In this document: positions 8,746-57,850 of the stretch, piece by piece | Numbering within the stretch: position 1 is the first letter of the stretch | Layout of the letters: each line of letters begins with the position of its first letter | NCBI GenBank assembly: GCA_016165875.1 | Contig: JABBOT010000080.1 | Location: 50,085,159 to 50,149,158, forward strand | Source of the DNA: Acanthopleura granulata | Taxonomy: Eukaryota > Mollusca > Polyplacophora > Chitonida > Chitonidae | Length of the DNA: 64,000 bases | Direction of reading: 5' to 3' | Program-made: the position numbers and the translations under genes | Notes under the pieces: model-generated | Seen by the model: only the letters and a program-made list of their open reading frames with translations | Databases searched by the model: none | What the model was told of the DNA's origin: nothing

Positions 8746-8751
8746 CACAGT

Positions 8752-10038: not shown

Positions 10039-10239
10039 GTTTATTAAACACGCACAGAGATGAATTAATGGACGTCTATATCAAATCTTCAATATATGAT
10101 GGAGGATTTGAGGTTGGATCAGTCGTATGGCAGCCAAAGAGAGGGTAACACACAATGACTTGCGCGTGAGGTCACAAGAACAGCCGCAGATGACAATTAT
10201 AAGGCCACTGAAAAACAACACGGGGTCACCCGGGTGCGA

Positions 10240-11020: not shown

Positions 11021-11043
11021 TGGAATCATTTACCACATCACAT

Positions 11044-11690: not shown

Positions 11691-11732
11691 TGGTGTTCGC
11701 TGATATGACATGCGGCTAGGTTCGTATTCGTA

Positions 11733-21162: not shown

Positions 21163-21320
21163 TCATTCGGACTTGTTCGGCTGGTCATTGCCACTGTCTC
21201 CCACTGAATGACAGTCTCCGGCCGAATGGCCATTCTGTTTACTCGACTCAGACATCTCCCGATACGTCAAAAACAGCTTAGCATATTCAGGCTTCTTTTC
21301 TGCACAGGCTTGAAACTCCT
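21163..21320 (-). CDS. LPCAT: LPCAT last coding exon
   Basis: Acceptor TTTCCAG at the 21321 side. It encodes EFQACAEKKPEYAKLF and LTYREMSESS followed by a hydrophilic Ser/Gly/Asn tail ending NKSE, stop TGA at 21163-21165. The KPEYAKLF block is shared with vertebrate LPCATs. Confidence 0.96.
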
Positions 21321-24300: not shown

Positions 24301-27300
24301 AATGGTTATGAGTGTAGTCAGCGGTCAGTGGTAATCAGTGTTGGTCAGCGGTCTGTGATGATCAGTGGCAGTGACCATCACTTACCGAAAAGGCTAGCCG
24401 TATTGTCTCCTCTGTAGCAGCTGGACCTGACACCAGAGACAAACCGATCACATACTCTCTGAAATCTATATAGCCAGACCCTGCCTGAAACAGAAAGTGA
24501 AAGCAGAAGTATGTCACTAAATCTATATGGCCAGACCCAGCCAAGGGAAAACATAGATAGGACATACACATACTCTCTGATATTTATATGGCCAGATCCA
24601 GCCATGTGAAAGAGAAATGCTGGTATCGGACTTTTGCTTTTCTTTCATGTACACATCTGCACCTATGTCATAGTCTTACTTTGTTATCACGGGGGCCCAC
24701 TGTAGCCATGGTTGCCAACTAAGGGATATGGTTGCATAAAGTTTATTTTATGTCCCAGGTAAAACCACAGACCATCTACATGGTAACAATACTTTATAAT
24801 AAAGTTTAAAGATCTACCTGTTCCAGACAAAATCTTTTGTACTTTATGTACAATTTATCCACAGTGATAGGACATGCTATGATGTAAGGCAATTCGGGAC
24901 AGACGCAAAACAGGTATTGATCTGCTAACTGCTTATGATTTTAACAGGAAAATAATTCAGATTATCCTTGAAAGTGAAAAGACTTTGGAAATGGCATAGC
25001 TCTTTCAAAGTCTACTTACTGAACCATGGAAAACCATACATGATCATTTAGAACTTACTCTGTCATAAAGCTGGAAAACTGTGTGCAAGGCATCAGAAAC
25101 CGGCAGGCGTAAATACTGGGCGAATTCCTCAATTGAAACTCGACCTGGCTTTCCTCGACAGATCTTACAAAATCTGTCAAACATTTCTTTGATGGTGTCA
25201 AAATTTAACCTGCAAACAAGTGAAACATGAAAACAACGATCTAAATTTAACAGATAAATTTAAACCACAGCTTTAACAACACTCACGGGTACATGTACAT
25301 GTGCTGCCAGTACCCATTATGTCTTGATCAGGTGGCAACTGTCCTTCAAAGATAGCCTGTCACAATCAGGGCAATAGTTTTATGGCTAAGTCACAATTAG
25401 CTTGCCAGTAGTTTGTGAGGGGTTTCTAGGCATTTTCGACCCGGGCCCCAGGACTCCGTGCAGCTGCCAGGCAATTTTAGGGCATCGAGCAGGCAATGGG
25501 TTACTTTTAACTTGGACTTAGAACCTGGTGTGGCATTTCACATCGCAAATTCAACACCAATAAATCAGCTGATGCCTGGCTGATATCTGGCAGAGCATCA
25601 CCCACAATGGGTGGGTAACGCGCCATATTTTGGACAACCCATACAATTCATATATTGGCCAGGTGCCACCCTCACACCATTCAGACGAAGGCTGGTCATG
25701 GCAGCGTGCAGGCCATTTTTAATTAAGGGTGTGACCGACCTGCCGTGCAATCTTCTGCTGATCTCTACTAGCAGTCTGATGCCTAAAAATTGTACACAGC
25801 ACCCGGGCTCTGCTTTAATTGTGACTTTGGTATTACTGATGTTACCCAAATGGAAATCCTAACTTAACATCACTGTTGATTGGCATCAGTATCCTTGGGT
25901 CGTCAAAGGGCTTTAGGGTATGTGTACATTTATAGACCGCAGTGCATATGGCTCTTTCTAAGCATTCTGATTTGAACCAAATTGTATACACATGATACAA
26001 CATGGAGAAAAGCTCAGCATATTGAGCATTATTAAAACTCTTCATTGTCCAATTCACGGTCAGATGGCATTTCAACAAACCCGAACGCACAATTACCAAC
26101 TCAATAAGACCAACGTTCCACTCACAACGTATTACCTAACATTCATGAGAAAATAGCCAATAACCTTGTAACAATGGCCAACAATCCACTAAAGTTATCT
26201 CCACAGCGAAACCTTCCCTAGTTTGCGTGTAGCCCAGGTGGTTTGCTGCCAACTGCATAGGTCTGCAGTCATCGTACTTACCCTAGTTTTTGGTGTAGCT
26301 TATAGAACTCTACCAGCCCTGATGCCATAGGAAGTTTATTGAAAGCTGCTCGCTGCATCAGTCTGCAGTCATCGTAGGTATGGTCAGTGACTGGTACACC
26401 CAAACATCTACAACATGACCCAAAACAAATACATCGTTAGCTTTCATGGAGCTAGCATGGAAATAAATGGAACAAAATACAAATTTTTTAAGAGCGTTTC
26501 AGAGTCCTTCCAGTGATACACCAAAGACTTGTTAACATATACATGTTGATCAACGAAACTGTGGTTGCTGTTTGGGGTGAATGGTGATAGCTCACCATGT
26601 GAGAGAGGGGCTGTGTGTCTGGAGAGGACACATGTTTGTGGCCTGGTGAACAGTGAAGAAGTAAAATGAATGTCAATTGGATATCAAGCCTTATTTATTC
26701 ATTTCAACATGGTAGCTGAGCACGATTCCCAATTTTAAACCTCTTGGCTGACTCAGGACAAAGCAAGTATCATAAAGAAGTGGACTTTCATTGAATTTGA
26801 ATAAAATTTAGTGAACTGCTGTTGTAACAAAAATACTAGACAGCCGTGGTAGTGATGGCTTTCAGTGAAATTATAGAACTCCTCAATATTTTCTAAACCC
26901 TACAAAAGATTGGGAGGTGAAATCAAGGTGTGGCAAACTGGAACAGTACTGGCTAAAAGGAAACAGGGTTCTACTATAGCCCTTTCTTTGCCAGAAGATG
27001 AGGGCAATATTGGTGATAAAGTATTCAGTGATCTTGGGGTTGAGCAGCTCAATTAAGAGGATGGTGTCGCTCCCCTGATTCATTTAAGAGGATGGTGTCG
27101 CTCCCCTGATTCATTTAAGAGGATGGTGTCGCTCCCCTGATTCATTTAAGAGGATGGTGTCACTCCCGATTCATTTAAGAGGATGGTGTCACTCCCGATT
27201 CATTTAAGAGGATGGTGTCACTCCCGATTCATTTAAGAGGATGGTGTCGCTCCCCTGATTCATTTAAGAGGATGGCGTCGCTCCCGATTCATTTAAGAGG

Positions 27301-33300: not shown

Positions 33301-36300
33301 ATTCTCACTGTGTTTTGACATCTGCTGTACGGCTATTGGGACACAATGGCGCAATATACACTAAAGGCACACAGTCAGGATCACTGCCTGTGTCTGTAAG
33401 TCACCAGTAACGATTTGTGGGACCAGAGCAATGACTTGGGGACATGTGGGAGCAACATTAATTTATATAACACCGATGTGTCTGCACTATTAAACCAATT
33501 TACATAATTATACTCCGTGTAGCAGAGCCCTGAACTATCATTTCACTTGTGCTACACTTGCTAGTCTGCAAATCCCCTCTATAATGGGCACATAAATGGT
33601 AAGCTATTCCCCTCCAGTACACATCTTTCCACACTCTCATGCAATAAGCTTTACGTTTCCTGTTTACCACTGGACAAACACCTGTACGTTCTTACCTAGC
33701 CATTTCTTCTCGGACGTTGTTGGCAAAAAGCTTGGGATCAGCCACCTCTAATGTATTGGGGTGATACACAGGCAAAAACTGCAGAACAAACACAGGGTCC
33801 ACTGTGGAAGCTTTAATGCTTACTCATATTGAACACTAACACATTATGTTCATCTATATGATGACATTTGGTCTAAAGATACATGTATGACATCTCAGAG
33901 ATAACTCTTTCTGCCAAACATAAGTAGACTGGTTGAAAGCTACTTGTAGCCTGCTAATTATGACCCTTTACTGATTTGTTTAGTGATTCCATTGTGGTTT
34001 AATGTCATACTCAGGGATATTTCATGGAATAAGGAAGCGCTAACCATTTGTACTCTCATTAAGTTACATAATGACTGAGTTTGTGATAAAATGGTTGATT
34101 TTTCTTCACAGAAAACCTACCTCTATTTCCATACGTGTCTGAAACTGGCACAAGGTATACCACAGCACTGCAAACCTGAGAGGCACAAAACGTTATAGTT
34201 TTCAGATGAGATAAAACGTACTATCATGTCAAATGATAAAAGGGCTTTACTACAAGTTTCTTGCATGACCTAGTTGTTCCATTCAGAAAATACACTTAGT
34301 TTTAACTATGTTTTGTCCATGAACCCACTTTTGCCTTGCACTGTACAGTGCCCATGAACCCACTTTTACATTGAACTGCACATTGTCTATGACACAAGTT
34401 TCTCTCAGAGTGACCTCTCACTGTTTGCATATCTGGTCCTTAGGTGTACTTATGCCTAACTATTAGTGTGTGACTTCAGAATCCACTGGCCATCTACTCA
34501 CGGTCCTGGTCCATCCCAAGTCCAGGTCACAGTGTCCTGTCATGGAAAGAAAAATATACACGTGAAATTTCATGTCTAAAAAATCAATGGTGTTCACATT
34601 CTGCAGTAAGTTTCACCACAACTGCCATGTCAGTTTGTCAGAAGATATGCTATTACCTATCTTATCTGACCAAACTCTCTGATGGCATTGTTGTACTATA
34701 GTCAATTACCTGAGAGACATTTTAGAACCTGGATTTCTTGAGAACTGCCCAGAACACAGGCAAAACATTTCATCATCCAAACCAAGCTTCTAGTGGATTG
34801 TCCAGTATTACCTGGTTATTGACAATACTTTATATATAGTTACTGTGTGACAAAAATCATTTTTTACACAATGGCTTATTTAAACATTCCTGAATTTTTT
34901 ATTTACTTTTTTACTTGTTGGTGTTTTAGATGTACTCAAGAATATTTCACTTGTATAACAGCAGCCAACATTATGGTGGGATGAAACCAGGCAGGGCCCG
35001 GGGGAAACCCACAACCAATCGCAGATTGCTGGCATACATTCCCACCTTCCGCAGAAGAGGAAGCCAGCCTGAGCTGGGCTTGAACTCACGCCAAATGCAC
35101 TGGTGAGAGGCACCTGGATCATCACAATACAGTAGTGTGCTAACCCCCTCAGCCGCAGGTGTCCCTTTTTTATGATTCTATTAGCTACAGATCGGTTTTG
35201 TTCACAACGCTTGTAATTGCTATGTAACTGCATGTGTGTATCTACATGTAAGTGAGATGTGAGTAGAGATATTTTGCCAACTCATTATTACAGGTACCTG
35301 AGAAGAATACCGTACATGACGTAAAGTTCAGCCGATAAATCTTACACACTGTATCCCATGATTCCTTGTAACTATATGCAGCTGTTATCATTGTTAACTG
35401 ATGTTGACAAAAATTGATCTTTGAAAATCATTCAACACACTCACACTTCATTGAACAATGGTCAGCATACAGCTAGTTTACAATATGACTAAACGAAGGA
35501 TAGGGTTATTCAGATAAATACTTGAGGATAACTAAATAAATAATGACATAGGACAGTATCTGGAGTTGGATTTTCATCCATTTTCTGTTGCTTCAATTAA
35601 GACCTCACGAAGTCATGCATATACGAATGAATTTACTGAAATCAGCACATAAAAATGATGTATATTTATGAACTTGCTGTCAACATGGTGGAAGGCTTGC
35701 TAAAAGATGTTAACCTTTAAAGTTTTGTATCAAAACAGTCTAACAGTATGATGATCATGTGAACTGAACACCTTAATGGCACGATTTCAGGCCCGATGTT
35801 GTCTTCAAATGTGGCTAAAGTATGTTACGGTAAGCGCACTGGTTTTCGCATTCTTTCTTGGTAATTTTACGTACAGACCTCGAATTCATTACATCTGCAA
35901 CACATTGAGCTGCCTCCATTTGTTGAATTCATGAATTTACACCATATTATCACAGACCGATGGCAGGATAATTTAGCTGAATGATCCATACAACAGGCGT
36001 AATTTTCTCGACAGTAAATCCTGGGAACATCGGCTGATTTTTCTCTGTCTACAGTTAACATAAAAGTGACAAGTCACAAACAGGTATATGCACATGTACA
36101 AGGTGTGAACGTCTCAAGTGTTAATCCATTGCTATTTAATAATTAATCCGTCACTATCACCATAAAATGTTGCTGATGCTTGCTCATCCACATACCCATA
36201 TTCTGAATGGTAAATACCCACAAAAATATCCATCTTTGCTTTTACAACTGACGCTTTTCAAACCCTCAACTGCCATTGTATAAGATATCGGTATTTTGCT

Positions 36301-39300
36301 GGCTGATGCGTACATTCTGGCTGCAAGTTTTGCTGACCAGTCGCCTGTGCTTCGGACCACATCACTCCCCTTTATGGGACTTGCACACTTAACTTGTTGG
36401 TTTGTAACTTCACAAAGTTCATGTGAGCAGTGGCAGAGTTCATTTTTGCACACACCGGAATTCTATAAACACTGCAAAATCCAGTGGTACATGTACCATA
36501 CAGTTCAGTCTTGCTATGTAATACAGTAATTCCCATGAAAGGTTGTAATCCGAAGATTTAAAGATGTAAAGTCTTTGCTGGAAATGCTGCAATCTTTAAG
36601 TTTTTATCTTTCTGAGGAGCTGGTGTTAAGATTTAGCAGCTGCAATCCAGTATTATGAAAGCCCCCAAAACTGGGGGTTCTATACCTGTGCTTTGAACGC
36701 GGCTGATGTGAGATAACCAGTCTGTGAAGAGCAGTCTGAGACAGAGCTTCAAAGCTTCCAAACCATGGGCTCTTCTACTGAAACTGCATCTTTGTTATGG
36801 CTTTTGGAGGCTCTACATCAAGTTACCACGATCAGAAGCTCGGCACAGGTGTCAGCCATTTAAATTATCTGTTACACAAAAGACATGTCGAGGACTGCTT
36901 ATTTTTATTTCAGGCATCTTGGACAACCATGAACAAAATGAATATAAGATATACTGCCAGGCTTGTTAGCCACGTCCATGTACTGCAACCAGATATATGT
37001 TTTTCCACGATCGCTACCAGCCAGTAGGATTACTTGCCACAACCATGCCAGGTCTGTCAGATTTCGTTCAACATTTTTGTTAGCTAATTTCATGAGAAAG
37101 AAAACAGAACTCCTTTTTGAAAATGGCCTATCTTTAAGAAGCATACCCTTCACAATGACAAAGCGTGTAGGTGTATACAAACACTCTTCAGTCAGTTCAT
37201 GTCTAGAGAGTTTACCACATGCAGCCCCAACCGGCGACCACACCGTCACTGGCCCTTAGCGCACTGCTGAGGGCTGATCACTCTCCACTCTGTTCTTTTC
37301 CGCCAAATCAAATCTGCTAAGCTTTAGGGCTAGAATTTAACGGCTAAACTTTATGTCATATAAAGTAGGCTGGATAGGGATTTCTATTAGTTTTGTCAGC
37401 AATGAGTACATGTATTTAGATGCAAGTGAAAAGTGAGTGGAAACGGGCAAACTCACCAGTTCATTAAGGTATCTAATCAGGACAGGCTGGATTGGCACAC
37501 CCGGGTAAAACGCCCCTGAAAACATACACACAATTACAGCTTGGCAACTGCTATTCCCAAAGTTCTGCTCATTTCTTGGTTTGTTGTTCATCATCCCTTC
37601 CAACAGTACCTGGGTACATCATATCAACTTTTAGCTTGCTTACCAACCAGCTGACACACCTGCTTTGTCCTGCCCCTCTACGGAGCACCATGCTGCACCC
37701 AACACACTCATGGTTAGCTTATGTGTGTTTTAATTCAATATGATGTATCATTTTGACTCCATGACATTGCCGATGTGGCGATAAGCCATAATCATTCATT
37801 CATTCTAGTCTCGAATACTGATCCCTGTATATCCAAAGGTAGTTCCTTTTTGCTAGTCGGTACTGGCGGGAAATGAATGATGATAATCATAACAGGTAAG
37901 TTAACATCACTGGCATAACTTTCCTATATATCCAAGCAGTTGTATCAAAGGATGAGATTTTCCAGAAATACAAAGGCTCTGTCACAGCCCATTCAAATGT
38001 TTGTCTCAATGCTTAGTTTTTGATACCAGAAGTTAAAATTTTGACACCTTTGTCTCAAAAAATCCAAGCTGGCTTTGCATTACTGGCCCCTGGTCATTAT
38101 CAGTCAAGTGGCTCTCTCAGTGTGGGAGGTCTGTGAGGTTATACTATTTGTGAGCAATTATGTTTACAGTGGCACTGGCTCTTCAAAATACCCTACTGAA
38201 TAACAGGCTCTAAGCGACACTAGGGGCACAGTTAATGGTGAACAGTCTGGACACAGCAGGCTAGTTAATGCCCACATCTGTATCACCATCAGGCATCACA
38301 CAGCTTCTCCATTACTTCCTTGTCCATACCAGACCATGCTCACTGGACCATCCTGCACATACCAGACCACATTACCAGGAACAGCCTGTACATACCAGGC
38401 AATGCTCACTGGACAATCCTGCACATACCAGACCATGCTCACTGGACCATCCTGTGCATACCAGACCACGCTCATTGGACCATTCTGCACATACCAGATC
38501 ATGCTCACAGGAGACCAGCAAATGAGACACACATGTATGGTTGTCCACAGGGAATTTCAGTCATCTTGGACAACCAGACAACCCTTAAAATTGAGCCTTG
38601 CTACCAGATCATACTCAATCGACCATGCAACACACATCAGACTATGCTCACTGGAATGCATTTCCTGCATCTACCAGACCATGCTAACTGGAACACTCAA
38701 CACACACCAAATCATGCTCACTGGAATGCCTTTCCTGGACCTACCAGACCCTGCTCACTGGAATGCATTTCCTGCACCTACCAGACCAAGCTCACTGGAC
38801 CATCCAACATACACCAGACCACGCTTACTGGAATGTATTTCCTGCACCTGCCGGATCATGATCACTGAAATGCTTTTCCAGCACCTACTAGACCATGTTC
38901 ACTCGAATGCCTTTCCTGCACCTACTAGACTATGTTCACTCGAATGCCTTCCCCCCACCTACCAGACCATGCTCACTGAAATGCCTTCCCCCCACCTACC
39001 AGACCATGCTCACTGAAATGCCTTCCCTCCACCTACCAGACCATGCTCACTCGAATGCCTTCCCCCCACCTACCAGACCATGCTCACTGAAATGCCTTCC
39101 CCCCACCTACTAGACCATGCTCACTGAAATGCCTTCCCTCCACCTACCAGACCATGCTCACTGAAATGCCTTCCCTCCACCTACCAGACCATGCTCACTC
39201 GAATGCCTTCCCTCCACCTACCAGACCATGCTCACTCGAATGCCTTCCCCCCACCTACCAGACCATGCTCACTGAAATGCCTTCCCCCCACCTACTAGAC

Positions 39301-42300
39301 CATGCTCACTGAAATGCCTTCCCTCCACCTACCAGACCATGCTCACTGAAATGCCTTCCCTCCACCTACCAGACCATGCTCACTCGAATGCCTTCCCCCC
39401 ACCTACCAGACCATGCTCACTGAAATGCCTTCACTCCGCCTACCAGACCATGCTCACTGAAATGCCTTCCCTCCACCTACCAGACCATGCTCACTGAAAT
39501 GCCTTCCCTCCACCTACCAGACCATGCTCACTCGAATGCCTTCCCCCCACCTACCAGACCATGCTCACTGAAATGCCTTCACTCCGCCTACCAGACCATG
39601 CTCACTGAAATGCCTTCCCCCCACCTACCAGACCATGCTCACTGAAATGCCTTCCCCCCACCTACCAGACCATGCTCACTGAAATGCCTTCCCCCCACCT
39701 ACCAGACCATGCTCACTGAAATGCCTTCACTCCACCTACCAGACCATGCTCACTGAAATGCCTTCCCCCCACGTACCAGACCATGCTCACTGAAATGCCT
39801 TCCCTCCAACTACCAGACCATGTTCACTCGAATGCCTTCCTCCCACCTACCAGACAATGCTCACTGAAATGCCTTCCCTCTAACTACCAGACCATGCCAA
39901 CTGGAATGCTTTTCCTGCACCTACCAGACCATGCTAACTGGAATGCTTTTCTAGCACCTACCTGGCTTGAAGGAGATGAGACAAGACCTGTTTGTACAGG
40001 TGCCTTCTGGGAAGATGATGATCTGTGGCCATTTGCCTTTGGACTGAGCTCGTCGCTTTATTTCCTTGATGGTGTTTACTCTGGAGTCTGGGTCTTCCCG
40101 GGACACAAACACTGGCTGAGTGTATCTTATTAAAGCTGCCAATACAATTCATAATCAGCTTAATACATGCTGAATTAGTGAGGATGATGACATCAACTCA
40201 GTGTTACACCAAACAATCAGGAATCTAATCAAAGTAGACAAAAATGTTTACAGAAATTACGAAATTCTAAAAGTTCAAAACATTCACTAGAGTGAGTAAT
40301 GAGTAAATAAATCCTGACCTGATTAACAGAGTTAACATTAAGTTTACATCATTGACTAAGGGCCAATTCCACAATACTGTACTTAAATATCTTAAAACTT
40401 GACCAAAATTAAACATTCTTGAAATTTTAGAATAAGGGCATGGATGGTGCATGTATATAATGCCGCAGTAAAGTGACACAAATTTCAAAACCTGTAAGTG
40501 TGAAAGTTACTGTAAAATTCAGTTAAAGGTTTCGAATTAGTCAAAAAAAAATCTTTTATGGAATTTGACCCTGCTGATCAATTAATTTCGAAAGTTATTT
40601 TATCTTTCAACGTTAAGGCCATAAATATTAAGCTGAACATTATTGTTACAATACAGGTCAAGCTCTATATTAATGTCAGAATTGATCTATATTATTGTTA
40701 AAATGCTCAAAGATCAGTCTTATAATTAGACAACTGTACATCATTGTAAAACAGGTCACATTTCAAAAGGTGAGGAGGGGAAAACATAAATTATGCAATT
40801 TAACAAATCCATATATAACAAAAATTCATGGATAGGAAACAACCAGAAGATGAGTATGTGATGAGAGTGAATGTAAGGTTTGCGAGTTGGATTGGGGTGG
40901 ACGAGGGGGTGGGGGGAGAAGCTGATGTAAGCAGAGAGGTTAGGCAAACAGGTTTTCTGGGGATATGTGTAAAAAAAAAGGTAACCATAGAGACAACATG
41001 GGCAAACACTGGCCACTGTGCTTAGTAAAGTGATGTCTGGCAATTGAGGAGTGACTGAATAACGTGATGAAAATAGTGAAGATGTGTAGGAGAAGCGTGA
41101 TGTGTCTGAGAAGATGACAACAACATGTATGTACAAATACGGGTACATGTAGCTGGCTGATATGTAGCCTAGCTTACTTGTAACTAAGCTTTGTGTGTTA
41201 TCTGTTATTACACCTACGTCAATCAAACATTTCCCTAAACATCATTCAGGAGCAGTGTACAAACAGCCACACATGTACAGTTACAGGATAATACCAGGAA
41301 CGAGTACTCCCTAGACAGTTAACAGAGAGTTGTCTGGAAGAACAGCTACATGGATCACATGTTTTTAATCACAGAATACATTCTGCCGTCCCATGGCAAA
41401 AGGAAGCAAGTGATATTTAGGTGTAAAATAAGATAATCACACTATACGACTTATTAAAGGAGGGCGCTTGTCTCAGCATTAGGATTTTTTGTAAACTGTG
41501 TTGTTCTTTTGTCTGTAATAAAGATGCAAAAAGAAGCAAGTACTTGTGTAATGATAGTTTCAGTGACAAAAGGAAGCAAATGATAATACACGTTATGAAC
41601 GATGCCAGCCTATCAAATGCATTATTACTAACAGAGCATGGTTCGTGAAGATCACTGTAACAGACATTTAATTATAGTAAAGCTTCTGAAGCTTACAGAT
41701 TTGTCAAAGTAATAAACTCGTAAGTAAAAATATATTTTTGTTATCCTTTGTCTACATAAATGCCTCAGTGTATTTTGCTTTAGCTGACAAAAGCAAGATT
41801 ATATAGTTGAGAACTGCACCCTCTATAATATTATTGTCTAGTATTTCCAATTAAGTCATGTTCACATTTAAAGTGTGGTAAAAATAAGGAAAAATACTTA
41901 AGTCAGTCTAATTTTCAGTAACATTGTTTCTTATTACTGTTAGTCATCATCTCAGGTAAAAGAGCTCATGTTTTATAAGATCCTATGTTGCTCTGGTCAC
42001 TTACTTCCTTTGTCAATGTAAAGATGATATATCCTAGTAATTAATCATCACAATATACCTCAATTTATTTTCATTCTTGTGGTCTACAATTACAAGGTAA
42101 ATTGATTCCGACGTAGAGGATGTCCAAAAAAGGCAAATGGTGTTCTTTGCCAATATATCAAAATGGTGGTTTTGTCACTTGCTTTCTGGGAGGACTGTAT
42201 TATGTACACATATGTACCAAAGTAAAAGATAAAATCTATGAAAACGCAAAATTAGAACAAAACTAAACCACCTATATCACATATGCTAAATTGAAAACAA

Positions 42301-48300: not shown

Positions 48301-51300
48301 GGAGGGTACAAAACTCCCATAATGACCATCTGGACACTATGAAATACACTATGGCAATATATATGTATTGTTTACAAACAAACCTGTGGCAATGAAAATC
48401 TCAAGGTGTTATTTGCGTAAATCACAGAGTGTTAATAATTTACATACTACCTCAAAACCATGTTATGCTTTCTTAATTTGGAGTGTTAATACATGTATTA
48501 GTAAATGTATATGATACAAAAGTTACTGTCTATGCTAGCAATAATGTGAAGAGATTGTCACAGCAAACAACGTCCTGATGTCTATACCCAGAATGATTAG
48601 GCACCCAGTGGCCAAAAAGAAAAACAAAACGAGCAAAATCACTTGACAAGTTAAATAAGGAAGCACTCAGTGTGTCACAACATAACTGTCATAATATCAC
48701 CATAGTTACAGGGCGTGGCTAGAGACAAGTATACCTACTGCCCAAGAGTGGAATTCGAGAGTTTTCCTTCCGAGATATAACGCTGGGGATGTCTCGGACA
48801 AACATGACAATAGCGTCCCAAAAGCTTGAGTGCGGAGCCACACAGACTACAGGGGCCTCTGTCATCGATGCCCTTTGGCCGCGGATGGCCACTTTATGAA
48901 ATCCGCACAGAAAAAAAACACATCGGCCAATGAAGCCAAGCAGTTGATGGACAAACCTAAAATAGCAACACAAACAGAGACATTCAACTTCAGCATTATG
49001 TACACATCGACAGAGCCCAATATACCTGTAACATACATCCACATGAACACAGTGTGAAATTAACAATATTCAGACGTATTCAACGCTCCCTGAAATCTGA
49101 GGAGAAACTGCTACCATTCCAACTGACCTTTCCTCAAAGTATATTCGACAGCTCAACTAGAATTGTATAACATTTACCATCATTTGGGGTGACAGACATT
49201 TAGCAGTTTGAGGCTAACTCTTCACGTACATGAGACTGGAGTTATGGATTCTTCAGTTGGATTGGTAAAGACTTTGGTAAGTGTAAATACTCTGTAGAAC
49301 ATGCATAATGTCTCATTCAAATAACTTAATACAGATTTATTGGGGGTACAAGTAATTTACCACATACTGACCTAATACACGTACACAACCATGCCACAGA
49401 TTCCACTATAAAATCTTATCTGTAGACCACCTCTGTGCATTGTCAGAACTCAAACTAACAAAAGACACATCATCAAAGCCCGCCCATGTTACAAGTGAAT
49501 TACAAAACTTAAAACAGTATCTCAAATCTTGACAAAAAGCAGTACAACAGGGCCTGTTCATACCGCAGTGCATGAAGCACCATTTCTGAACACAGTTAGT
49601 GGTTCAGCGTCACATTACAGGGCCTATTACAGCAAATGAAGCACCATTTCTGCACACAGTTGCTGGTTCAGTGTCACATTACAGGGTCTATTACAGTATA
49701 TGAAGCACCATTTCTGCACAAAGTTACTGGTTCAGTGTCACATTACAGGGCCCATTACAGTACATAAAGCACCATTTCCGCACACAGTTACTGGTTCAGC
49801 GTCACATTACAGAGTCTGTTGCAGTGCGCAAAGCACCATTTCTGCACATGACCTGTGTTTATTCATTCTTAGATTTTCATAACCTGTGCGCATTCAATTT
49901 TTTCCTGGAAATAATAATGCAGTATTGTGCTTGTATGCCGCTTCAGAACAAGGGACATAAATCTCCTTTCCATGTGAGACCTATGACTGTTCCACTGGGT
50001 TCCCAGTGAACCACTGTACTTACTACCAGATGCCCATGATTCAAGGGTCAAAAGTAACACAGCATTTTGGCAAAATTGGAAGCACTGTTTGTTTTGTTAA
50101 ACCTTGAATAGTGTGCTGGCAAAGATCTGACATGACACACAATCCATCAGAAGTTTTAGCTTCATCTCTCACAAACTGCTTTTGCAAAAAAGGTAGTTCA
50201 CTTGATATTTGTTAGATCTATTCTGGAGTAAGTAAAAATTATCTGAATGTGGACATTATAAACATACTGAAATCACAAAATGACGATTCTGCCAGCATGG
50301 CTAGATGAGCGCTGGATTGCACTGGAGCTCCTGAACTCATTTCAAGTACATGTAATGGCTGAAAAGTCCTGTTTGTCTTTCTTCTCTTAAAGTACAAATG
50401 ATTTTTCCAGACAGATTATTTACTAAAATTGAGATTTTTTTTAATTGGTATATTTTATTCAAAATAATCTGCTGTTTCTAACACATGATAATGAACACAA
50501 TAATTCTGACAGGTAAATTTTGATCTCTCACTATTTGCCATTACACTGAAAGGTTGTAAGGTTTACACACATGTAAATCGTTAATACTTATCTCAAACCA
50601 GCCTCTAGCTTCACTGAAGCCCAGGTTATAAGAATCTAGCAGTTACTTAACAGCGGCCTACAGTAACAGCTAGCAGGCACATAGCATGCTTGTAAGGGCT
50701 GTAATTACCACAATGAGTTGTGCTACCTGGCATATGTGGCCTGAGGTCTCTAACATTATTTCAGATATTAACCACAAACTGTGATCATCAATAATGCATG
50801 ATCTGTTTATAAAATCATGGGTGAACATGGCACAACTAGCTGAAATCTGCATCATGCCCCAGACAGCAGACAAAACAACGTATTGATTTACCCAGCCTTT
50901 GATGTCACATTAAGGGTGCGTTCATAGTGAAATCCTGTCCCTGTGTTACATGCATATATATCGTGGTGACCTTGGCAATGTGATGAGAGCACAACCTGTG
51001 TTATTACCAGTGGATTAGCCTGCCGCCCATTCAAGAATATGCCAGAGAGTGACCATTCAATACAGCCTGTCAGGGCAGGGGACAAAGGTCAGACAACATC
51101 TGTTAATGGCCAACAACATAAGGTAAGCTGTAAAACCAGTTGTAGGGTTTTATAGAAGTTCCTAACCTACCAGCCCATGTGTTTCTCCAACTCCACATGT
51201 GTATTATTCAAAGGTTTGGTCAGAAGGTCAGGTTAGGCAGGTTAGGCTCACATTTAGATGAATACAAACAGCATACTCTAAACATCATATTTAATAATGA

Positions 51301-54300
51301 ACAAGCAAACCATCACAGTACATCACATCATGTACTCAGGACTCATGCATCTGACACACCTTACTTCACCTCTCTTGAACGATACAGAAATGTAAGCTGT
51401 TAACAAACTTTAGATATGTAAGTGATCTATGCGGTGCCCGTACCCCTAGGTACAAGGCACTATATTATGGCCTTACAAGGAAACCACTACAGGACAGCAA
51501 ATCCCAACTTATCTGGGAAACCCATTTCACACCACTACCACTACAGCAGTAGGTGGAATGCCTGTACCTGCAGCAGAGGTTGTGACTAGAGACACTATGA
51601 TATAAGCCAAGATGGCTTCACAACTACCATATAACCGATGTGGACATTCCCAAATAATGACAACAGATTCAGTACTAGGACAGTTTATACAAGTACCCTA
51701 CATGTAGTAAACTGTCAGTTCTTTTTTTTTGTTTTTTATTGGGGGGGGGGGGTTGGAGTGGGGAGAGGGTTAACTGAACATACAATTGCATGAACTCAAT
51801 ATTTTGTGCTTTTAACAACCAAATGCTCAACATCTTGGAATAAAATGTAATTTTAGACTCCTACACATCCCTGTACAATGTAGGCCTACACGTATTACAA
51901 AATCTATCATTCTACAAAAACACAACTCTGCCTGTGCATCACTTTGACAGTTAAGGGAAAGACCTCATAGAAATGAACTTGGCGTGAGTGAAAAGGCCAT
52001 TATAGACTGTATCTGAAAATACCTTCACTGAATTTTTTACATTTTTTTTCCATCATAATAAACACAGTCAAATATTTTGATAGTACGGTGGGTATTACAA
52101 ACCATAGTGATAATATGGTTCACCAGTGAACACAACTTTTGGTAAACCTTTATGTTCAGCTCTGAATATTGTTCTTGTGCCGAGTTCTAGTGTAATGTTT
52201 GCCTGTGTATGGAAACACTAATGACATTAAATTTCTGCTTTGAGGCCACAGAAAAGTCGGCGTGACGTCACCGTTGAACCACATCAACAATATCATCCAT
52301 AAAACCCAGTACACAATCAAAACTTTTGACTGCATTTATTTTGGTGGAAAAAAATAAAAAAATTCAATGTAGGTATTTTCAGATGCAGTTTTTAATGGCC
52401 TTCTCGCTCACCCTAAGTTCATATTTAGGACGTCTTTCCCTTTAAGAGTATAGTATGTGTAAGGTGTTAAGGAGATGCCTTTGAGTGCCTGGATGCATTT
52501 TTCTGTGAGTTTCCTCTGTTGTCTTGTTGTTGTTGAAAGAGGGAGCATGGGGAACAGGAGCAGGAAAAAGATAAGACAGAACCCTAAAAAAATAATGCAA
52601 AGAAAACTGGATGAAAAACAAAATGTTCATACTTCCAAAGATAGGCACATATTCTGATTCAGATTTGGCGACTACTGATGTGAGGTCCAAGTAGGTGACG
52701 ACAACAGAATCGAAGTAGGAGGAGTGAGGTGAGAGGGCGACTATGGGCGCCTCCTGCGATGTGGCTCGCTTCCCTTTCACCGACAACCAGTGCAAGCCTC
52801 CCCAGAAGAATACTCCACGGCAGAAGAACACCACAATTGGCCTCAACATGCTAAAATAAGACAGAGATGGAGAGTCACACAAGGCCAGCACATCACCACA
52901 CAGGTTATGAATCAAAAGTCAGGATTTGTTACTATAAAGGTCCAATTATTGCTAAAACAATCTGTGCCACATCCAACACAAGCCAAACTAAACTCAGCCA
53001 GTCACAGACTGTTTATTACATTCACCAATGACTACATCAGGAAAAGCTGCTCTCAAATGCTGCAGCTTACTGGCATGATTCGTCAGTTTTTCTTTCCCTA
53101 CATGCCATTTGTATTTAATGATTCAAAATCACGTTGACACACAAAATACATCTTTATTTTATCAAGTCAGACACTTCACCTGTAGCTACGCTTTCTGCCT
53201 TGTTCCAGTAGGCAGAAATAACTCGACTGATCCACTCGACTCAATAGCAGATGAATAATAATGTCAATATATTACCCAATCAAGCAGTAGTTGCCCTAAT
53301 TGACTAAAAGCAAAGACAAAACAACATGTGCCCACGAATACGGCCCATGGCAGGTAAAAACTTAGAAAAATACTTTCAGTACATTTGACTGACATGTTTG
53401 AAATTTATTACGTGCATAAATTCTCTGCGAACTCGAGCAGGCAACTGTCTGATTGGATAACGATAACAGCTTTTTTGGAAATGGAGTCATAAACACGTAG
53501 AGATATTCAGAGTGTCTGGCTTGATAGAATTCATAGTAAGTTTTGAACAAAATAAAAGTGCTTGAGTTTCTGGCTTCTTTCTGTTGTAAAATCTAAACTG
53601 AGATGTTACACATGTAGGGAGATTGCATGGAGGAAACTGGGTTCTGCTTTTACTGAGGCAGCTGATAACCACCCTCCCCCCTCCTCGACTTTGGTGCTCG
53701 ATATGTGTAAGTCAGAGAGCACATAATGACTCAAGGTATCATTATTAAAAATGCTGCTCAGGTCAAAAAAGAAACTGTGTAGAAATATTAGTGACTGGCG
53801 ACAATATGTGTCTGTGCCTGACATCTTGTGTTTATGCCCGACTCCACACCAGGCAAAGTGGAAAGAAGAGAAAAATTTTGTTTCTGTATTCTCTAATGAA
53901 ATGTACAATATAGGTTTTATCTCAATCTTTGTTTTGACACCCAAGTAGCTCTTAAAGGATTCATTTTCCACATAACAAGCATAAAGTAAGGGAAACCTTT
54001 ATGTAAGAGTATTTTATACCAATCATCAAGGTACAAAAAGCAGTGTTCAGTGCAACTGAAAAAAAATAAACAAATAAATACAGTTAACATGCAAGCACAA
54101 ATGTGGTTGTTACAGTGACAACAAGCACGCATGTATATGTGCTAGCTGACTTAGTGGTAAGGAAACACTTGGCCAAGAGTGGGAATATCCCAAAGGAAGA
54201 CCAGTCCATTGTTAAACACAAGTGATAAACAGCAAAACAGTCAGGCAAGGCTTAAGACAGCTCAAAGCTCTATGGCAGGGGAAGCTGCATTTAATTCCTC

Positions 54301-57300: not shown

Positions 57301-57850
57301 AGGCTACAACCTACTTCCTCCAGCCTCCTGAGGGCACTTTCTCCTCACCCTTACGAACTCCCTGCTCAGGCTATAACTTACTTCCTCCAGCACCCAAATG
57401 GCACCTTCTCCTCACCCTTACAAACTTCCTGTTTAGGCTATAAACTTACTTCCTCCAGCCTCTAAGGGCACGTTCTCCTCACCCCTACAAAATCCTGCTA
57501 ATGCCCGGGCTATAACTTACTTGCCTAAGGGCACTTTCTCTTCACCCTTACAAACTCCTTTCCCAGGCTAGATCTTAATTCCAAATTCCTGCCCCAGGCT
57601 ATAACTTACTTCCTCCAGCCCACTAAAGGCACTTTCTCCTCACCCTTACAAACTCCCGCCCCAGGCTAGATCTTACTTCCAAACTCCTACCCCAGGCTAT
57701 AACTTACTTCCTCCAGCCCCCTAAAGGCATTTTCTCCTCATCCTTCTCTCTGCCCAGCAGGGCCAGAGCTGCAATTGGCCAAGCCATCAGCAAGCAGAGC
57801 CCCGCCAGCAGCAATCGGATTGGAGCCACTGTCAGCGACATTATCACCAC
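21163..57850 (-). CDS. LPCAT: Lysophosphatidylcholine acyltransferase (LPCAT1/2 family) with EF hands, gene span
   Basis: Membrane-bound enzyme of the ER/lipid-droplet surface that transfers an acyl group from acyl-CoA to lysophosphatidylcholine (Lands cycle; LPCAT2 also makes PAF). I assembled 12 coding exons per transcript with agreeing phases, 1443 nt or 480 codons with stop at 21163; vertebrate proteins are ~530-545 residues, so only the N-terminal exon is missing. Order in the visible protein: hydrophobic segment (about residues 12-34), HX4D acyltransferase motif I (residues 90-95), EGTCTNR motif (164-170), PGVPIQPV motif (about 183-190), then three EF-hand loops at 347-358, 384-395 and 419-430. 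Only the third loop is fully canonical (DTDEDGKITYEE). The motif I exon is duplicated. The C-terminus ends NKSE, without an obvious dilysine ER signal. Introns carry many minisatellites and a dead copia element. Confidence 0.96.
21740..22830. repeat. ~51-bp minisatellite in the last LPCAT intron
   Basis: About 20 diverged copies of a unit containing CTGTTCAGGTTATGTAGGTG and GATCATTGCCCAAACGCTTA (plus-strand view). Plus-strand open frames through it are repeat artefacts. Confidence 0.9.
23279..23420 (-). CDS. LPCAT: LPCAT exon with EF hands 2 and 3
   Basis: 142 nt. Acceptor TTTGCAG after a long T tract, donor G|GTGAGT. Loop 2 is DSEGKGYITEDE (Glu and Lys at positions 3 and 5, weak); loop 3 is DTDEDGKITYEE, canonical, completed by the next exon. 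Confidence 0.96.
24128..24372. repeat. GTCAGTGGT-type short tandem array beside the EF1 exon donor
   Basis: Irregular repetition of words such as GTGTTGGTCAGTGGT and GGTTATGAGTGTG. It ends about 13 bp from the donor of the 24386 exon. Confidence 0.75.
24386..24484 (-). CDS. LPCAT: LPCAT exon with EF hand 1
   Basis: 99 nt. Acceptor TTTCAG, donor TCG|GTAAGT. It encodes AGSGYIDFREYVIGLSLVSG and PAATEETIRLAFS. With DR from the previous exon the loop reads DRAGSGYIDFRE; Ala at loop position 3 makes it a weak calcium site. Confidence 0.96.
24455..24610 (-). repeat. Three tandem copies of the EF1 exon's 5' edge
   Basis: The true exon start (GCCAGACCCTGCC region at ~24471 on plus) recurs at ~24530 and ~24589, spacing 59 bp. 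Translated on minus, the copies read AGSGYIDFREYV (real), AGSGHIDL and AGSGHINIREYV. The copies have lost the acceptor AG (CCTTGGCTGGG and CACATGGCTGG instead of TTCAGGCAGGG). They are partial exon duplications, not usable exons. Confidence 0.85.
25059..25209 (-). CDS. LPCAT: LPCAT exon before EF hand 1
   Basis: 151 nt. Acceptor TTGCAG, donor AGA|GTAAGT. It encodes NFDTIKEMFDRFCKICRG, VSIEEFAQYLRLPVSDAL and HTVFQLYDR. The first two residues of EF loop 1 (DR) close this exon, so the loop is split by an intron. Confidence 0.96.
26200..26281 (-). pseudogene. Decayed partial copy of LPCAT exon 26282-26407
   Basis: Immediately after the donor, the intron repeats the exon word CGATGACTGCAGAC, continues as a diverged version of the exon (translates DDCRPMQLAA) with ~40 nt missing, and ends near CTAGGGAAGG, the former donor without its GT. 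It is a tandem internal exon duplication followed by decay. Confidence 0.75.
26282..26407 (-). CDS. LPCAT: LPCAT exon (GVPVTDHTYDDCRL block)
   Basis: 126 nt. Acceptor TTGTAG, donor GG|GTAAGT. It encodes CLGVPVTDHTYDDCRLMQRA followed by AFNKLPMASGLVEFYKLHQK. A decayed partial copy of this exon sits immediately downstream in the intron (26200-26281). Confidence 0.96.
26530..26709 (+). repeat. 5' LTR of the copia element
   Basis: Starts TGTTAACATATAC and ends TTTCAACA. It shares blocks TGTGGTTGCTG, GGGGTGAATGGTGATA and GAGGACACATGTTTGTG with 32792-32946. Length ~180 bp. Confidence 0.8.
26710..26724 (+). other. Primer-binding site
   Basis: TGGTAGCTGAGCACG directly follows the 5' LTR end. It resembles the initiator-Met tRNA-type site TGGTATCAGAGC usual in copia elements. 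Confidence 0.6.
26880..28735 (+). pseudogene. Copia gag remnant, split by a minisatellite
   Basis: The first part (26890-27055) reads EIKVWQTGTVLAKRKQG and SLPEDEGNIGDKVFSDLG. The second (28101-28296) reads DDLSAAFEAYRDFDWYKQQS and VTEFEKLYKKTKKYSTTLPQ. The C-terminal part is glycine-rich (about 28490-28620) and is followed by a CCHC knuckle (CKIC ... HFARFC, about 28688-28730) that a one-base frameshift breaks. Between the two halves lies the 27055-28080 tandem array. Gag would form the particle and bind RNA. Confidence 0.75.
27055..28080. repeat. 29/31-bp minisatellite inside the copia gag
   Basis: About 34 copies of GATTCATTTAAGAGGATGGT plus GTCGCTCCCCT (31 bp) or GTCACTCCC (29 bp). Blocks of the same variant order recur (for example 27240-27400 and 27470-27640), showing block duplication. 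Confidence 0.93.
28840..29205 (+). pseudogene. Copia aspartic protease remnant, catalytic triad lost
   Basis: The frame reads SAVLGTACTSTVAGKMW, then, after a frameshift, DGSYLDTLSQGQREQVIRSE and SDIPLLLDKPAMKAAK. In this family the first block is normally AVLDSGC; here Asp-Ser-Gly is Gly-Thr-Ala (28856-28864), so the catalytic Asp is gone. The protease would cut the gag-pol polyprotein. Confidence 0.72.
29247..30400 (+). pseudogene. Copia integrase remnant
   Basis: The zinc-binding N-terminus is visible as KLHKQFAHVAPRFVTLLQDA (HH present, Cys pair weakened), then the core with WKPGTYILHLIDV and FIADNGAEFVKAEFLDVA (29605-29658), and the C-terminal block GPGQVIVRDGKIVFVWHGNI and STCRLVKV (30021-30120). 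Several stops and frame changes. Confidence 0.75.
30400..32130 (+). pseudogene. Copia reverse transcriptase and RNase H remnant, interrupted by a SINE
   Basis: RT starts as ELDNWKKYGIY (about 30597-30630), is cut by the SINE, and resumes at 30920 with KERLEALGFEEEEEQVQSDS. Then come YGLNDASRSCYF (about 31170-31206) and the position of the catalytic dyad, which reads HMNVFMW: the two Asp codons are AAT GTT at 31318-31323. RNase H pieces follow (KCCPLAW-like at ~31795, STLTAETLSTVDSFNTAM at ~31850-31900 and the LADCLTKR-type end near 32120). Non-functional. Confidence 0.78.
30673..30906 (+). mobile_element. Full-length tRNA-derived SINE inserted in the copia RT
   Basis: Starts GGGGCCTCTGTGGCTCAGTC (A-box-like), has B-box-like GAGTTCAAGTC, central block CCATAATGCTGGCCGACG and tail GTGAAATATTCTTGAGTAC ending AATAAATAAAT. 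Flanked by an 11-bp direct repeat with one mismatch: TATTACAAACA (30662-30672) and TATTACAGACA (30907-30917), a target-site duplication. Confidence 0.88.
32110..32480 (+). repeat. 60-bp tandem array grown from the RNase H coding end
   Basis: About five copies of a 60-bp unit (AGCTCCTTGGGATACTCCAA and TACCAAACGCCAAGCTTCAT), the last two diverged and shortened. The unit corresponds to the RNase H C-terminus (ADCLTKRQTSCVKLLGILQ in the coding frame), seen once in its original place near 32115-32175. Confidence 0.88.
32771..32791 (+). other. Polypurine tract
   Basis: AAAGAAAGAAAGAGGGAG lies directly before the TGTTAG start of the 3' LTR, as needed for plus-strand priming. Confidence 0.75.
32792..32946 (+). 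repeat. 3' LTR of the copia element (recognisable part)
   Basis: Starts TGTTAGCATATACG and matches the 5' LTR through GAGGACACATGTTTGTG and GTGAACTGTGAAGAA. Similarity fades beyond 32946. Confidence 0.75.
32947..33695. other. Intron, nothing recognised
   Basis: A weak two-copy repeat near 33040-33180 (CACTG(G/A)ATTC and AGTGGG(C/T)AGA words). No other signal. Confidence 0.4.
33696..33778 (-). CDS. LPCAT: LPCAT exon (FLPVY block)
   Basis: 83 nt. Acceptor CTGCAG, donor AG|GTAAGA. It encodes FLPVYHPNTLEVADPKL and FANNVREEMA. Confidence 0.96.
34121..34175 (-). CDS. LPCAT: LPCAT exon (LWYTLCQ block)
   Basis: 55 nt. Acceptor CTCAG, donor GAG|GTAGGT. It encodes FAVLWYTLCQFQTRMEIE. Confidence 0.95.
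34502..34536 (-). CDS. LPCAT: LPCAT micro-sized exon (DTVTWTWDG)
   Basis: 35 nt only. Acceptor GACAG, donor CC|GTGAGT. It encodes DTVTWTWDGPG plus two bases, matching the invariant TWTW block of the family. Both junction phases agree. Confidence 0.95.
34895..35170 (-). mobile_element. tRNA-derived SINE, full-length or nearly so
   Basis: On the minus strand: head with GGCTGAGGGGGTTAGCACAC, central block and tail (CATAATGTTGGCTGCTG, GTGAAATATTCTTGAGTAC). Same family as 30673-30906. Confidence 0.82.
35171..37456. other. LPCAT intron, nothing recognised
   Basis: Unique AT-rich sequence. Open frames at 36905-37259 overlap on both strands, but have no motif or splice support that I trust. Confidence 0.4.
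37457..37515 (-). CDS. LPCAT: LPCAT exon with PGVPIQPV motif
   Basis: 59 nt. Acceptor TTTCAG, donor CTG|GTGAGT. It encodes AFYPGVPIQPVLIRYLNEL, the conserved acyltransferase block after EGTCTNR. Confidence 0.96.
37516..38290. other. LPCAT intron, nothing recognised
   Basis: Unique sequence before the large 37-bp array. Confidence 0.4.
38290..39961 (-). repeat. 37-bp minisatellite in register with the LPCAT 5' splice site
   Basis: About 40 copies. On the minus strand each unit reads GGTAGGTGs...GAAGGCATTTCAGTGAGCATGGTCT, and the first unit begins at the authentic donor of exon 39962-40135 (CCAG|GTAGGTGCTAG). The next units repeat TCTGGTAGGTG with the GTAGGT kept in most copies. Units near the exon are more diverged than the inner ones. 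An irregular island (about 38520-38650) and a 33-34-bp variant (38320-38520) sit at the far end. Long plus-strand open frames here are repeat artefacts. Confidence 0.93.
39962..40135 (-). CDS. LPCAT: LPCAT exon with EGTCTNR motif
   Basis: 174 nt. Acceptor GGCAG at the 40136 side, donor CCAG|GTAGGT at 39962. It encodes LIRYTQPVFVSREDPDSR, KEIKRRAQSKGKWPQIIIF, PEGTCTNR and SCLISFKP. EGTCTNR is the substrate-phosphate-binding motif of the family. The donor lies exactly at the edge of the 37-bp minisatellite. Confidence 0.97.
40136..42519. other. LPCAT intron, nothing recognised
   Basis: AT-rich unique sequence. Minus frame 40756-41226 has no motif or splice support. Confidence 0.4.
42520..43650. 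repeat. ~46-bp minisatellite with higher-order structure
   Basis: The unit contains CCTACACAAATGTGTGAATG and AACAAGTATTCATG. A ~190-bp block (42542-42732) recurs almost unchanged at 43108-43298, offset 566 bp. Six virtually identical 46-bp copies stand at about 43290-43570, the youngest part. Confidence 0.93.
43655..44985. repeat. ~57-60-bp minisatellite
   Basis: Over 20 copies of a unit containing ATTCCATGTACTGTACCACA and ACCATGTGTTCTGTACCCCA, with two variant classes (GCCATAATTT and GACACAGTGT). Long open frames on both strands (43810-44562 plus, 43822-44355 minus) come from unit lengths divisible by three, not from genes. Confidence 0.93.
44986..46904. other. LPCAT intron, nothing recognised
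   Basis: Unique sequence with short duplications such as TCAGCGTTTATGCATGTAT (45957 and 45982). Confidence 0.4.
46905..47105 (+). mobile_element. tRNA-derived SINE, 5'-truncated
   Basis: Begins within the B-box region (GCTGTGAGTTCAAGTC), followed by CCATAATGCTGGTTGCTG, GTGAAATATTCTTGAGTAC and an AATCAATCAATCAATA tail. Confidence 0.8.
47106..48738. other. LPCAT intron, nothing recognised
   Basis: Intronic sequence downstream of catalytic exon A on the minus strand. No further exon copy was seen. Confidence 0.4.
48739..48956 (-). CDS. LPCAT: LPCAT catalytic exon, copy A (LPCAT2-like)
   Basis: 218 nt. Acceptor TTTTAG|G at 48956, donor A|GTAGGT at 48739. It encodes FVHQLLGFIGRCVFFLCGFH, the turn VAIRGQRASMTEAPVVCVA, motif I PHSSFWDAIV (His and Asp present) and SRKENSRIPLLG. 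The SRxEN...PL(I/L)G end is the form I remember from vertebrate LPCAT2. It joins in frame to 40135 exactly as copy B does. Neither copy has a stop. Confidence 0.94.
49545..49850. repeat. ~66-bp tandem repeat upstream of catalytic exon A
   Basis: Four to five copies of a unit with ATGAAGCACCATTTCTGCAC and GTTCAGTGTCACATTACAGG. Confidence 0.88.
49851..52632. other. Intron between the two catalytic exons, nothing recognised
   Basis: Between copies A and B. Contains a T/G homopolymer pair at ~51722-51752. No third copy of the catalytic exon was seen. Confidence 0.45.
52633..52850 (-). CDS. LPCAT: LPCAT catalytic exon, copy B (LPCAT1-like)
   Basis: 218 nt. Acceptor TTTTAG|C at 52850, donor A|GTATGA at 52633; phase in and out identical to copy A. 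It encodes a hydrophobic start (MLRPIVVFFCRGVFFWGG), the turn LSVKGKRATSQEAPIVALS, motif I PHSSYFDSVV (His and Asp present), and ends AKSESEYVPIFG. The AKSES/AESR-type end and SSYFD match vertebrate LPCAT1 as I remember it, more than LPCAT2. It joins in frame to 40135. Confidence 0.93.
52851..55150. other. LPCAT intron, nothing recognised
   Basis: Unique AT-rich sequence upstream of catalytic exon B on the minus strand. Confidence 0.4.
55150..55960. repeat. ~30-bp minisatellite
   Basis: About 25 copies of a unit containing ACTTCAGTCAACAAACCACA and GTAATGAC, more diverged to the right. Open frames through it on both strands are repeat artefacts. Confidence 0.9.
56345..57707 (-). repeat. ~67-bp minisatellite built from an LPCAT exon-intron junction
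   Basis: About 18-20 copies. On the minus strand each unit holds the exon's last codons and its donor: GAGGAGAAAGTGCCCTTAGG then GGGCTGGAGGAAGTAAGTTA. The true exon end is GATGAGGAGAAAATGCC...GGCTGGAGGAA|GTAAGTTATAGCC. Nearly all copies keep GTAAGT or GTAGGT. Copies nearest the exon (57540-57707) are the most diverged. A variant block (ACCCAAATGGCACC) recurs at ~56790 and ~57390, indicating a later block duplication of ~600 bp. Confidence 0.94.
57708..57850 (-). CDS. LPCAT: LPCAT exon: N-terminal membrane segment (first exon visible)
   Basis: Acceptor TTGTAG at the 57851 side, donor AA|GTAAGT at 57708. It encodes VVIMSLTVAPIRLLLAG followed by a hydrophobic hairpin (LLMAWPIAALALLG) and EEKMPLGGWR. 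This matches the conserved region just after the usual NPFVHEL-type N-terminus. It starts in phase 0 and ends with two bases of a codon that either copy of the next exon completes (AAG Lys or AAC Asn). The exon encoding the start Met was not found upstream to 64000. Confidence 0.93.

Follow-up and report, generated by a model that had tools for sequence, protein, structure and literature searches.

Mammalian LPCAT acyltransferases are encoded by separate genes, and the locus described here raises the question of whether a single gene might obtain two such enzymes by splicing. The window, a stretch of 64,000 nucleotides from the chiton Acanthopleura granulata (GenBank assembly GCA_016165875.1, contig JABBOT010000080.1, positions 50,085,159 to 50,149,158 of the forward strand), carries on its minus strand a complete LPCAT-type gene, whose first coding exon lies just past the window end and whose product of 515 amino acids combines an AGPAT-family acyltransferase with EF hands. 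The gene holds two types of the exon bearing catalytic motif 1, here called A and B, of 218 nt each. We consider it probable that these exons are mutually exclusive in this single-copy gene, and that splicing would yield either an LPCAT1-like enzyme (A) or an LPCAT2/4-like enzyme (B), differing in donor or acceptor preference and chosen by tissue or state.

The gene model follows open frames and splice signals; all its introns are GT-AG and the phases of adjoining exons agree. An acceptor preceding E1 suggested that E1 is not the first coding exon. The exons, in the order of transcription, are as follows.

573-677 bases past the window end, minus strand: first coding exon, 105 nt, with the ATG, an NPF sequence and a GTAAAT donor
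57708..57850, minus strand: E1, second coding exon, VVIMSLTVAPIRLLLAGLCLLMAWPIAAL...GGWR, common to both isoforms, ending in phase 2 (acceptor AG at 57852-57851)
52633..52850, minus strand: alternative exon A, 218 nt, motif 1 PHSSYFD, VVAKSESEYVPIFG, tending to LPCAT1
48739..48956, minus strand: alternative exon B, 218 nt, motif 1 PHSSFWD, VISRKENSRIPLLG, tending to LPCAT2/4
39962..40135, minus strand: E3, motif 2 (QPVFVSR) and motif 3 (FPEGTCTNR)
37457..37515, minus strand: E4, GAFYPGVPIQPVLIRYLNEL, motif 4
34502..34536, minus strand: E5, DTVTWTWDGPG
34121..34175, minus strand: E6
33696..33778, minus strand: E7, FLPVYHP...FANNVREEMA
26282..26407, minus strand: E8, CLGVPVTDHTYDDCRLM...
25059..25209, minus strand: E9, where the EF-hand region begins
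24386..24484, minus strand: E10, EF-hand-like AGSGYIDFREY
23279..23420, minus strand: E11, EF hands, DSEGKGYITEDE / DTDEDGKITYEE
21163..21320, minus strand: E12, C-terminus, with the stop codon at 21163

A and B are homologous neighbouring exons of equal phase. The boundaries given in the initial annotation (A 52850-52633 and B 48956-48739, 218 nt each on the minus strand) stand, as do the splice signals and phases that it described: an AG precedes and a GT follows each exon, both are entered after two bases of a codon and left after one, and neither contains a stop. Spliced to 57708 upstream and to 40135 downstream, each exon gives a frame of 477 amino acids from the ATG of E1 to the stop at 21163. 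The claim that only one of them can be used, as far as a full-length protein is concerned, was borne out as well, because any other combination shifts the reading frame: a transcript containing both exons, lacking both, or carrying them in reversed order meets an in-frame stop after 148, 116 or 119 residues, respectively (window numbering). A premature stop well before the last junction leads to nonsense-mediated decay, and since these stops fall several exons before that junction, the decay of such transcripts would be expected. On the evidence of the sequence, the mutually exclusive reading is well supported. Against it, the donors at 52633 and 48739 match 5 of 9 consensus positions each and fit the consensus less well than most donors of the gene (ten others scored 5 to 8, E5 also reaching 5), the use of both exons in RNA is a prediction, and the pair is known from one genome.

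Comparison of the two exons demonstrates that both are old. Aligned without gaps, the two exons share 100 of 218 nucleotides, against a background mean of 54.4 (standard deviation 6.4, maximum 80) in windows taken every 7 bases on the same strand, with sampling steps that skipped A and B themselves. Their proteins share 26 of 73 residues, with a BLOSUM score of 154 compared with a maximum of 3 among 10,000 shuffles. Identity at codon positions 1, 2 and 3 amounts to 30/73, 51/72 and 19/73 (position 2 versus 3, Fisher p 5e-8); as third positions are at chance level and second positions are kept, A and B are both old and selected. We also simulated drift with one copy neutral, in 5000 runs per exon at 0.37 changes per site, a Jukes-Cantor bound calculated from second codon positions. 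The frame stayed free of stops and kept the HX4D motif in 1.6% of the simulations starting from A and 3.5% of those starting from B, to which further survival factors of about 0.23 for intact splice sites and about 0.0003 for the absence of indels can be added (the latter assuming 0.1 indel per substitution). Thus the codon-position pattern and the simulations speak against the neutral drift of one copy, which the initial annotation had named as grounds for abandoning its proposal, and both exons have most likely been maintained over a long time.

The search of the genome covered 606,523,666 bases in 87 contigs. The protein of isoform B gave 77 matches at E<=10, 12 of them in the LPCAT-type gene itself; 64 of the 65 matches elsewhere concern the EF-hand part, and the last one the core (contig C1, position 28523050, E 1.48). 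With the common core of E3 to E8 as query, five matches fell in the gene and two elsewhere (E 0.28 and 7.7), and the DNA of exon A matched only itself genome-wide, as did that of exon B. No second acyltransferase core of the LPCAT type was found in the 606.5-Mb assembly. Clusters of EF-hand (calmodulin-like) matches were met in the same search on contig C10, at 8.94-9.18 Mb and 15.4-15.5 Mb. Farther afield, bacterial relatives were limited to 3 loci at 27-33% identity, too distant to inform, and no relatives were confirmed in viral contigs or in a first scan of further genome contigs.

Regarding the active site, the Pfam acyltransferase model PF01553 matches residues 69-189 of isoform A (E 1.7e-19) and 67-189 of isoform B (E 4.7e-20; window numbering), with the EF hands behind; the C-terminal part matches EF-hand Pfam models at best with 5.7e-21. 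The exchanged exon corresponds to residues 83-155 of 515; it begins ahead of motif 1, spans the catalytic HX4D and runs on as far as the IPLLG or VPIFG turn. Motif 1 (xHxxxxD) is present in both versions, as PHSSYFD in A and PHSSFWD in B, and FPEGTC and PGVPIQP are present in the gene. In motif 2 (GxxFxxR), QPVFVSR keeps the Phe and the Arg, with Gln replacing the first Gly. The sequences used for comparison, human LPCAT1, LPCAT2 and LPCAT4 and part of fly LPCAT, are working copies rather than database records. For the three human proteins, Table 3 of PMC8753187 gives the same positions for the catalytic His (His135, His146 and His129) and for the Glu of EGTC, motif 3 position 3 (208, 220 and 203), an agreement that confirms the spacing and a few residues and not every letter; the fly sequence stands without such a check. 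In these working copies the first residue of motif 2 is Arg in LPCAT1 and Gln in LPCAT2, the latter having Leu in place of Phe.

In an alignment to the solved bacterial PlsC (5kym), the catalytic His and Asp correspond to His84 and Asp89 of that protein, and Lys105 is the counterpart of residue 107 (window; 145 in full length). A manually docked model of LPCAT2, described in PMC8753187, has His146 as the catalytic residue and assigns to Arg166 and Arg195 a possible role in recognising the phosphates of lyso-PAF (PAF, platelet-activating factor) and acetyl-CoA (CoA, coenzyme A), respectively. In the chiton gene, B has Arg and A has Lys at 20 positions past the catalytic His, the same distance as that between His146 and Arg166 in LPCAT2, and the residue at 49 positions, located in E3, is Arg in both isoforms. 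Since Lys and Arg alternate at the former site and Arg is constant at the latter, the exon swap would alter the proposed contact with the lyso-PAF phosphate and would spare the proposed contact with acetyl-CoA. Set against this proposal, the change from Lys to Arg is conservative, the role in phosphate recognition comes from a docked model, and no residue of this gene is known to govern acyl selectivity.

The initial annotation had further claimed that the two exons differ in the way LPCAT1 and LPCAT2 do, and this found partial support. In the sequences compared, exon B is identical to LPCAT1, LPCAT2 and LPCAT4 at 30/72, 34/72 and 35/73 positions, the last two values being the highest of any comparison involving A or B; for exon A the corresponding values are 30/72, 25/72 and 25/73. 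At 5 sites A agrees with LPCAT1 and B with LPCAT2, with 1 site for either other pairing. A maximum-likelihood tree of the five exon sequences (A, B and the three human proteins, 73 sites) joins A to LPCAT1 and B to LPCAT2/4 with an ultrafast bootstrap of 96, and under LG+G4 the approximately unbiased (AU) test gives p 0.034 for both rival trees. The tree and the identities of B suggest a leaning of A towards LPCAT1 and of B towards LPCAT2/4; the resemblance of A to LPCAT1 is modest, and the reservations about the tree given below hold for both exons. The rest of the gene gives another picture. The tree of E3 to E8 (178 columns) separates chiton and fly from the three human proteins with a bootstrap of 81, with only 45 for LPCAT1 and LPCAT4 together within the human group. 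For this region a tree joining the chiton to LPCAT1 has an AU p of 0.029 (LG+G4) and a Shimodaira-Hasegawa (SH) p of 0.071, and two tested trees joining it to LPCAT2 are not rejected (AU p 0.21 and 0.17, LG+G4), with similar results in three more models in each case. Compared with each other, the two trees suggest that the history of the exon differs from that of the gene and goes back further, as it should if both exons were present in an ancestral gene and each vertebrate copy retained one of them. We put forward, tentatively and as something rather short of an even chance, that the pair of exons already existed before protostomes and deuterostomes diverged, that the ancestral bilaterian LPCAT gene produced both enzymes by splicing, and that, once the gene had been duplicated in the ancestry of vertebrates, LPCAT1 kept the A type and LPCAT2 and LPCAT4 the B type, in which case the division between surfactant-type and PAF-type enzymes would be inherited from a splicing choice that chitons still use.

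A quite plausible alternative, to which we also give somewhat less than an even chance, is that the exclusive exons are real but arose by duplication inside the protostomes or the molluscs, with convergence or noise accounting for the similarity of A to LPCAT1 and of B to LPCAT2/4. The comparison depends on 73 sites only and on working copies of the human sequences; A and B resemble LPCAT1 to the same extent (30/72 each), and A and LPCAT1, which group together, are both long branches. Several further points weigh against an ancient pair. The rival exon trees survive the Kishino-Hasegawa (KH) and SH tests (p 0.057-0.058); in six further model runs the AU p of the rivals ranges from 0.038 to 0.066, and JTT does not reject them (0.065). 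The spacing between motif 1 and motif 2 is 38 in A compared with 37 in human LPCAT1 (Table 3 of PMC8753187), and the fly sequence mixes the types, with Tyr 90 and Lys 107 like A and Leu 115 like B. A duplication within those lines, however, has to face the AU p of 0.034 under LG+G4 and of 0.038-0.044 in five of the six further runs, and the fact that B is closer to LPCAT2 and LPCAT4, in the copies used, than to A. In addition, among 200 alignments simulated under a tree uniting A and B, the observed support was reached in 1, although the tree with A next to LPCAT1 was the best one in 79.

Three further explanations were considered. One of the exons could be decaying or already dead, a remnant of an ancient tandem duplication, with only the other in use, and expression of both is a prediction; nevertheless the codon-position pattern, the intact frame, the HX4D motif and the splice sites persist in both exons despite saturated synonymous divergence, and no credible remnants of other exons lie between A and B, so that we regard a relic as improbable. 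We judge similarly unlikely that B is joined to an upstream exon of its own with a promoter between A and B, which would make the switch transcriptional. B needs a phase-2 donor upstream and the gap of 3676 nt is roomy enough for a promoter; however, tblastn found no second copy of the E1 peptide between A and B or elsewhere in the genome, the only further E1 matches coming from minisatellite units that repeat its last residues and lie, without exception, upstream of A, and E1 both gives the right phase to A and B and carries the hydrophobic N-terminal segment. Finally, two separate genes with their own downstream exons, an outcome that the initial annotation had itself raised against its proposal, are very improbable indeed and can be set aside, together with tandem gene duplicates, since E3 to E12 were found once and no second core of this type turned up in the assembly; what speaks for them is that the assembly reaches 606.9 Mb versus a flow-cytometric estimate of 743 Mb (PMC7850002), so that a paralogue may be missing from it.

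For a mutually exclusive pair, we propose that the spliceosome would join E1 to A or to B and then to E3, the remaining exons being common, and that transcripts with both exons or with none would be frameshifted and probably cleared by nonsense-mediated decay. The predicted isoforms keep the catalytic His and Asp, motifs 2 to 4 and the EF hands, and differ around the active site, including the Lys of A and the Arg of B. A would most likely give the LPCAT1-like enzyme and B the LPCAT2/4-like one, with a different preference for the acyl donor or the acceptor, and the choice between isoforms may depend on tissue or state.

As to how the exclusivity could be enforced, complementary intron sequences, which the initial annotation had suggested looking for, occur in the stretch from E1 to E3, and a specific pairing that would enforce the choice was not found there, which weighs against the proposed exclusivity. 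There are 17 inverted pairs between these exons, of which two form one repeat-element hairpin and the other 15, measuring 16-23 nt, may be chance matches. The hairpin, located at 51953-52442 in the intron between A and B and about 190 nt beyond the donor of A, has a minimum free energy of -207.6 kcal/mol (521 nt folded, z -15.6). A first look in the genome gave 3318 candidate places for this palindrome of about 490 bp; the 40 that were scored, its own place included, match over most of the length, the 39 others being 80-83% identical. It is probably a foldback transposon or a miniature inverted-repeat transposable element (MITE), and as a member of a repeat family it was ruled out as a specific splicing structure. 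Steric exclusion is implausible with 3676 nt between A and B. Since steric exclusion is implausible and the only long hairpin is a repeat, the exclusivity is likely achieved by competition between the exons under regulatory proteins, together with nonsense-mediated decay of the wrong products.

Several introns of the gene carry repeated sequence. On the minus strand, a minisatellite spans 56350-57745, with a 67-bp unit in 18.4 copies over 56350-57582 and a 98-bp period over 57525-57745 (Tandem Repeats Finder), and its units copy the 3' end of E1 including its 5' splice site. Counting the true E1 donor, GGRGGNAGTAAGT is matched at 13 places in this minisatellite, and the intron between E1 and A contains 22 GTRAGT/GTAGGT hexamers, the true donor again counted. 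A human precedent exists in IFI6. A 37-bp minisatellite at 38638-39962 (minus strand) holds in its first unit the E3 donor itself (GGTAGGTGC...), and the intron between E3 and E4 has 27 donor-like hexamers including the true one, 11 per kb. The intron ahead of E10 contains, immediately before that exon (24546-24614, minus strand), incomplete repeats of its beginning. At 31141-31539 (plus strand), in the intron between E7 and E8, a weak reverse-transcriptase match (PF07727, E 0.0029, under the curated cut-off) is probably a retrotransposon remnant. Outside the gene, the region 5000-12700 has several long open reading frames on both strands, one with a weak match to the integrase core PF00665 (7.5e-6) and one with a weak match to AAA_19 (0.002), both under curated cut-offs; these are probably the remains of a mobile element.

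The chiton gene and the vertebrate LPCAT1, LPCAT2 and LPCAT4 (LPLAT8, LPLAT9 and LPLAT10) have in common the four AGPAT motifs (PMC8753187), and the C-terminal EF hands also occur in LPCAT1 and LPCAT2 and, according to PMC5741692, in chicken LPCAT2. As described in PMC8753187, LPCAT1 makes 16:0-phosphatidylcholine (16:0-PC) and LPCAT2 is calcium-dependent and makes PAF; the main text of that article has no word starting with 'splic' or 'invertebrate'. A and B also resemble, in what is observed and in their predicted use, the mutually exclusive tandem duplicated exons treated in PMC9741552, which are homologous neighbours, used one per transcript, old, and altering part of a domain. Among those cases is invertebrate NALCN, where such exons change ion selectivity; in the chiton a lipid acyltransferase would have its catalytic motif exchanged, and LPCAT and 'acyltransferase' are absent from the main text of that source. 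A further parallel is the insect muscle myosin heavy chain, in which one gene with mutually exclusive exons corresponds to a gene family of most other animals (PMC2257972). Myosin is a motor protein, whereas the chiton case is one exon pair in an enzyme. Among human enzymes, CYP4F3A/B, PKM and KHK have mutually exclusive exons that shift kinetics or substrate choice, and they differ from the chiton gene in having other folds and belonging to other pathways. A prior description of an LPCAT with mutually exclusive exons was not found among the papers listed by a search of the full-text literature, subscription journals and genome annotation databases lying outside its scope. Tandem alternative exons are already known, and the swap of an LPCAT motif-1 exon tending to match the vertebrate paralogues is new as far as searched.

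The functional switch is a good hypothesis, under which the splicing of one gene could probably accomplish what takes separate genes in vertebrates. If true, a single exon swap would supply both forms of the active site for which vertebrates use different genes, one for 16:0-PC in surfactant and the other for PAF in inflammation. The isoforms, identical outside 73 residues, would be a natural chimera and would show whether the motif-1 segment sets the preference for acyl-CoA and lyso-PAF. The gene would also represent a test case for the sorting of splice isoforms into duplicated genes.

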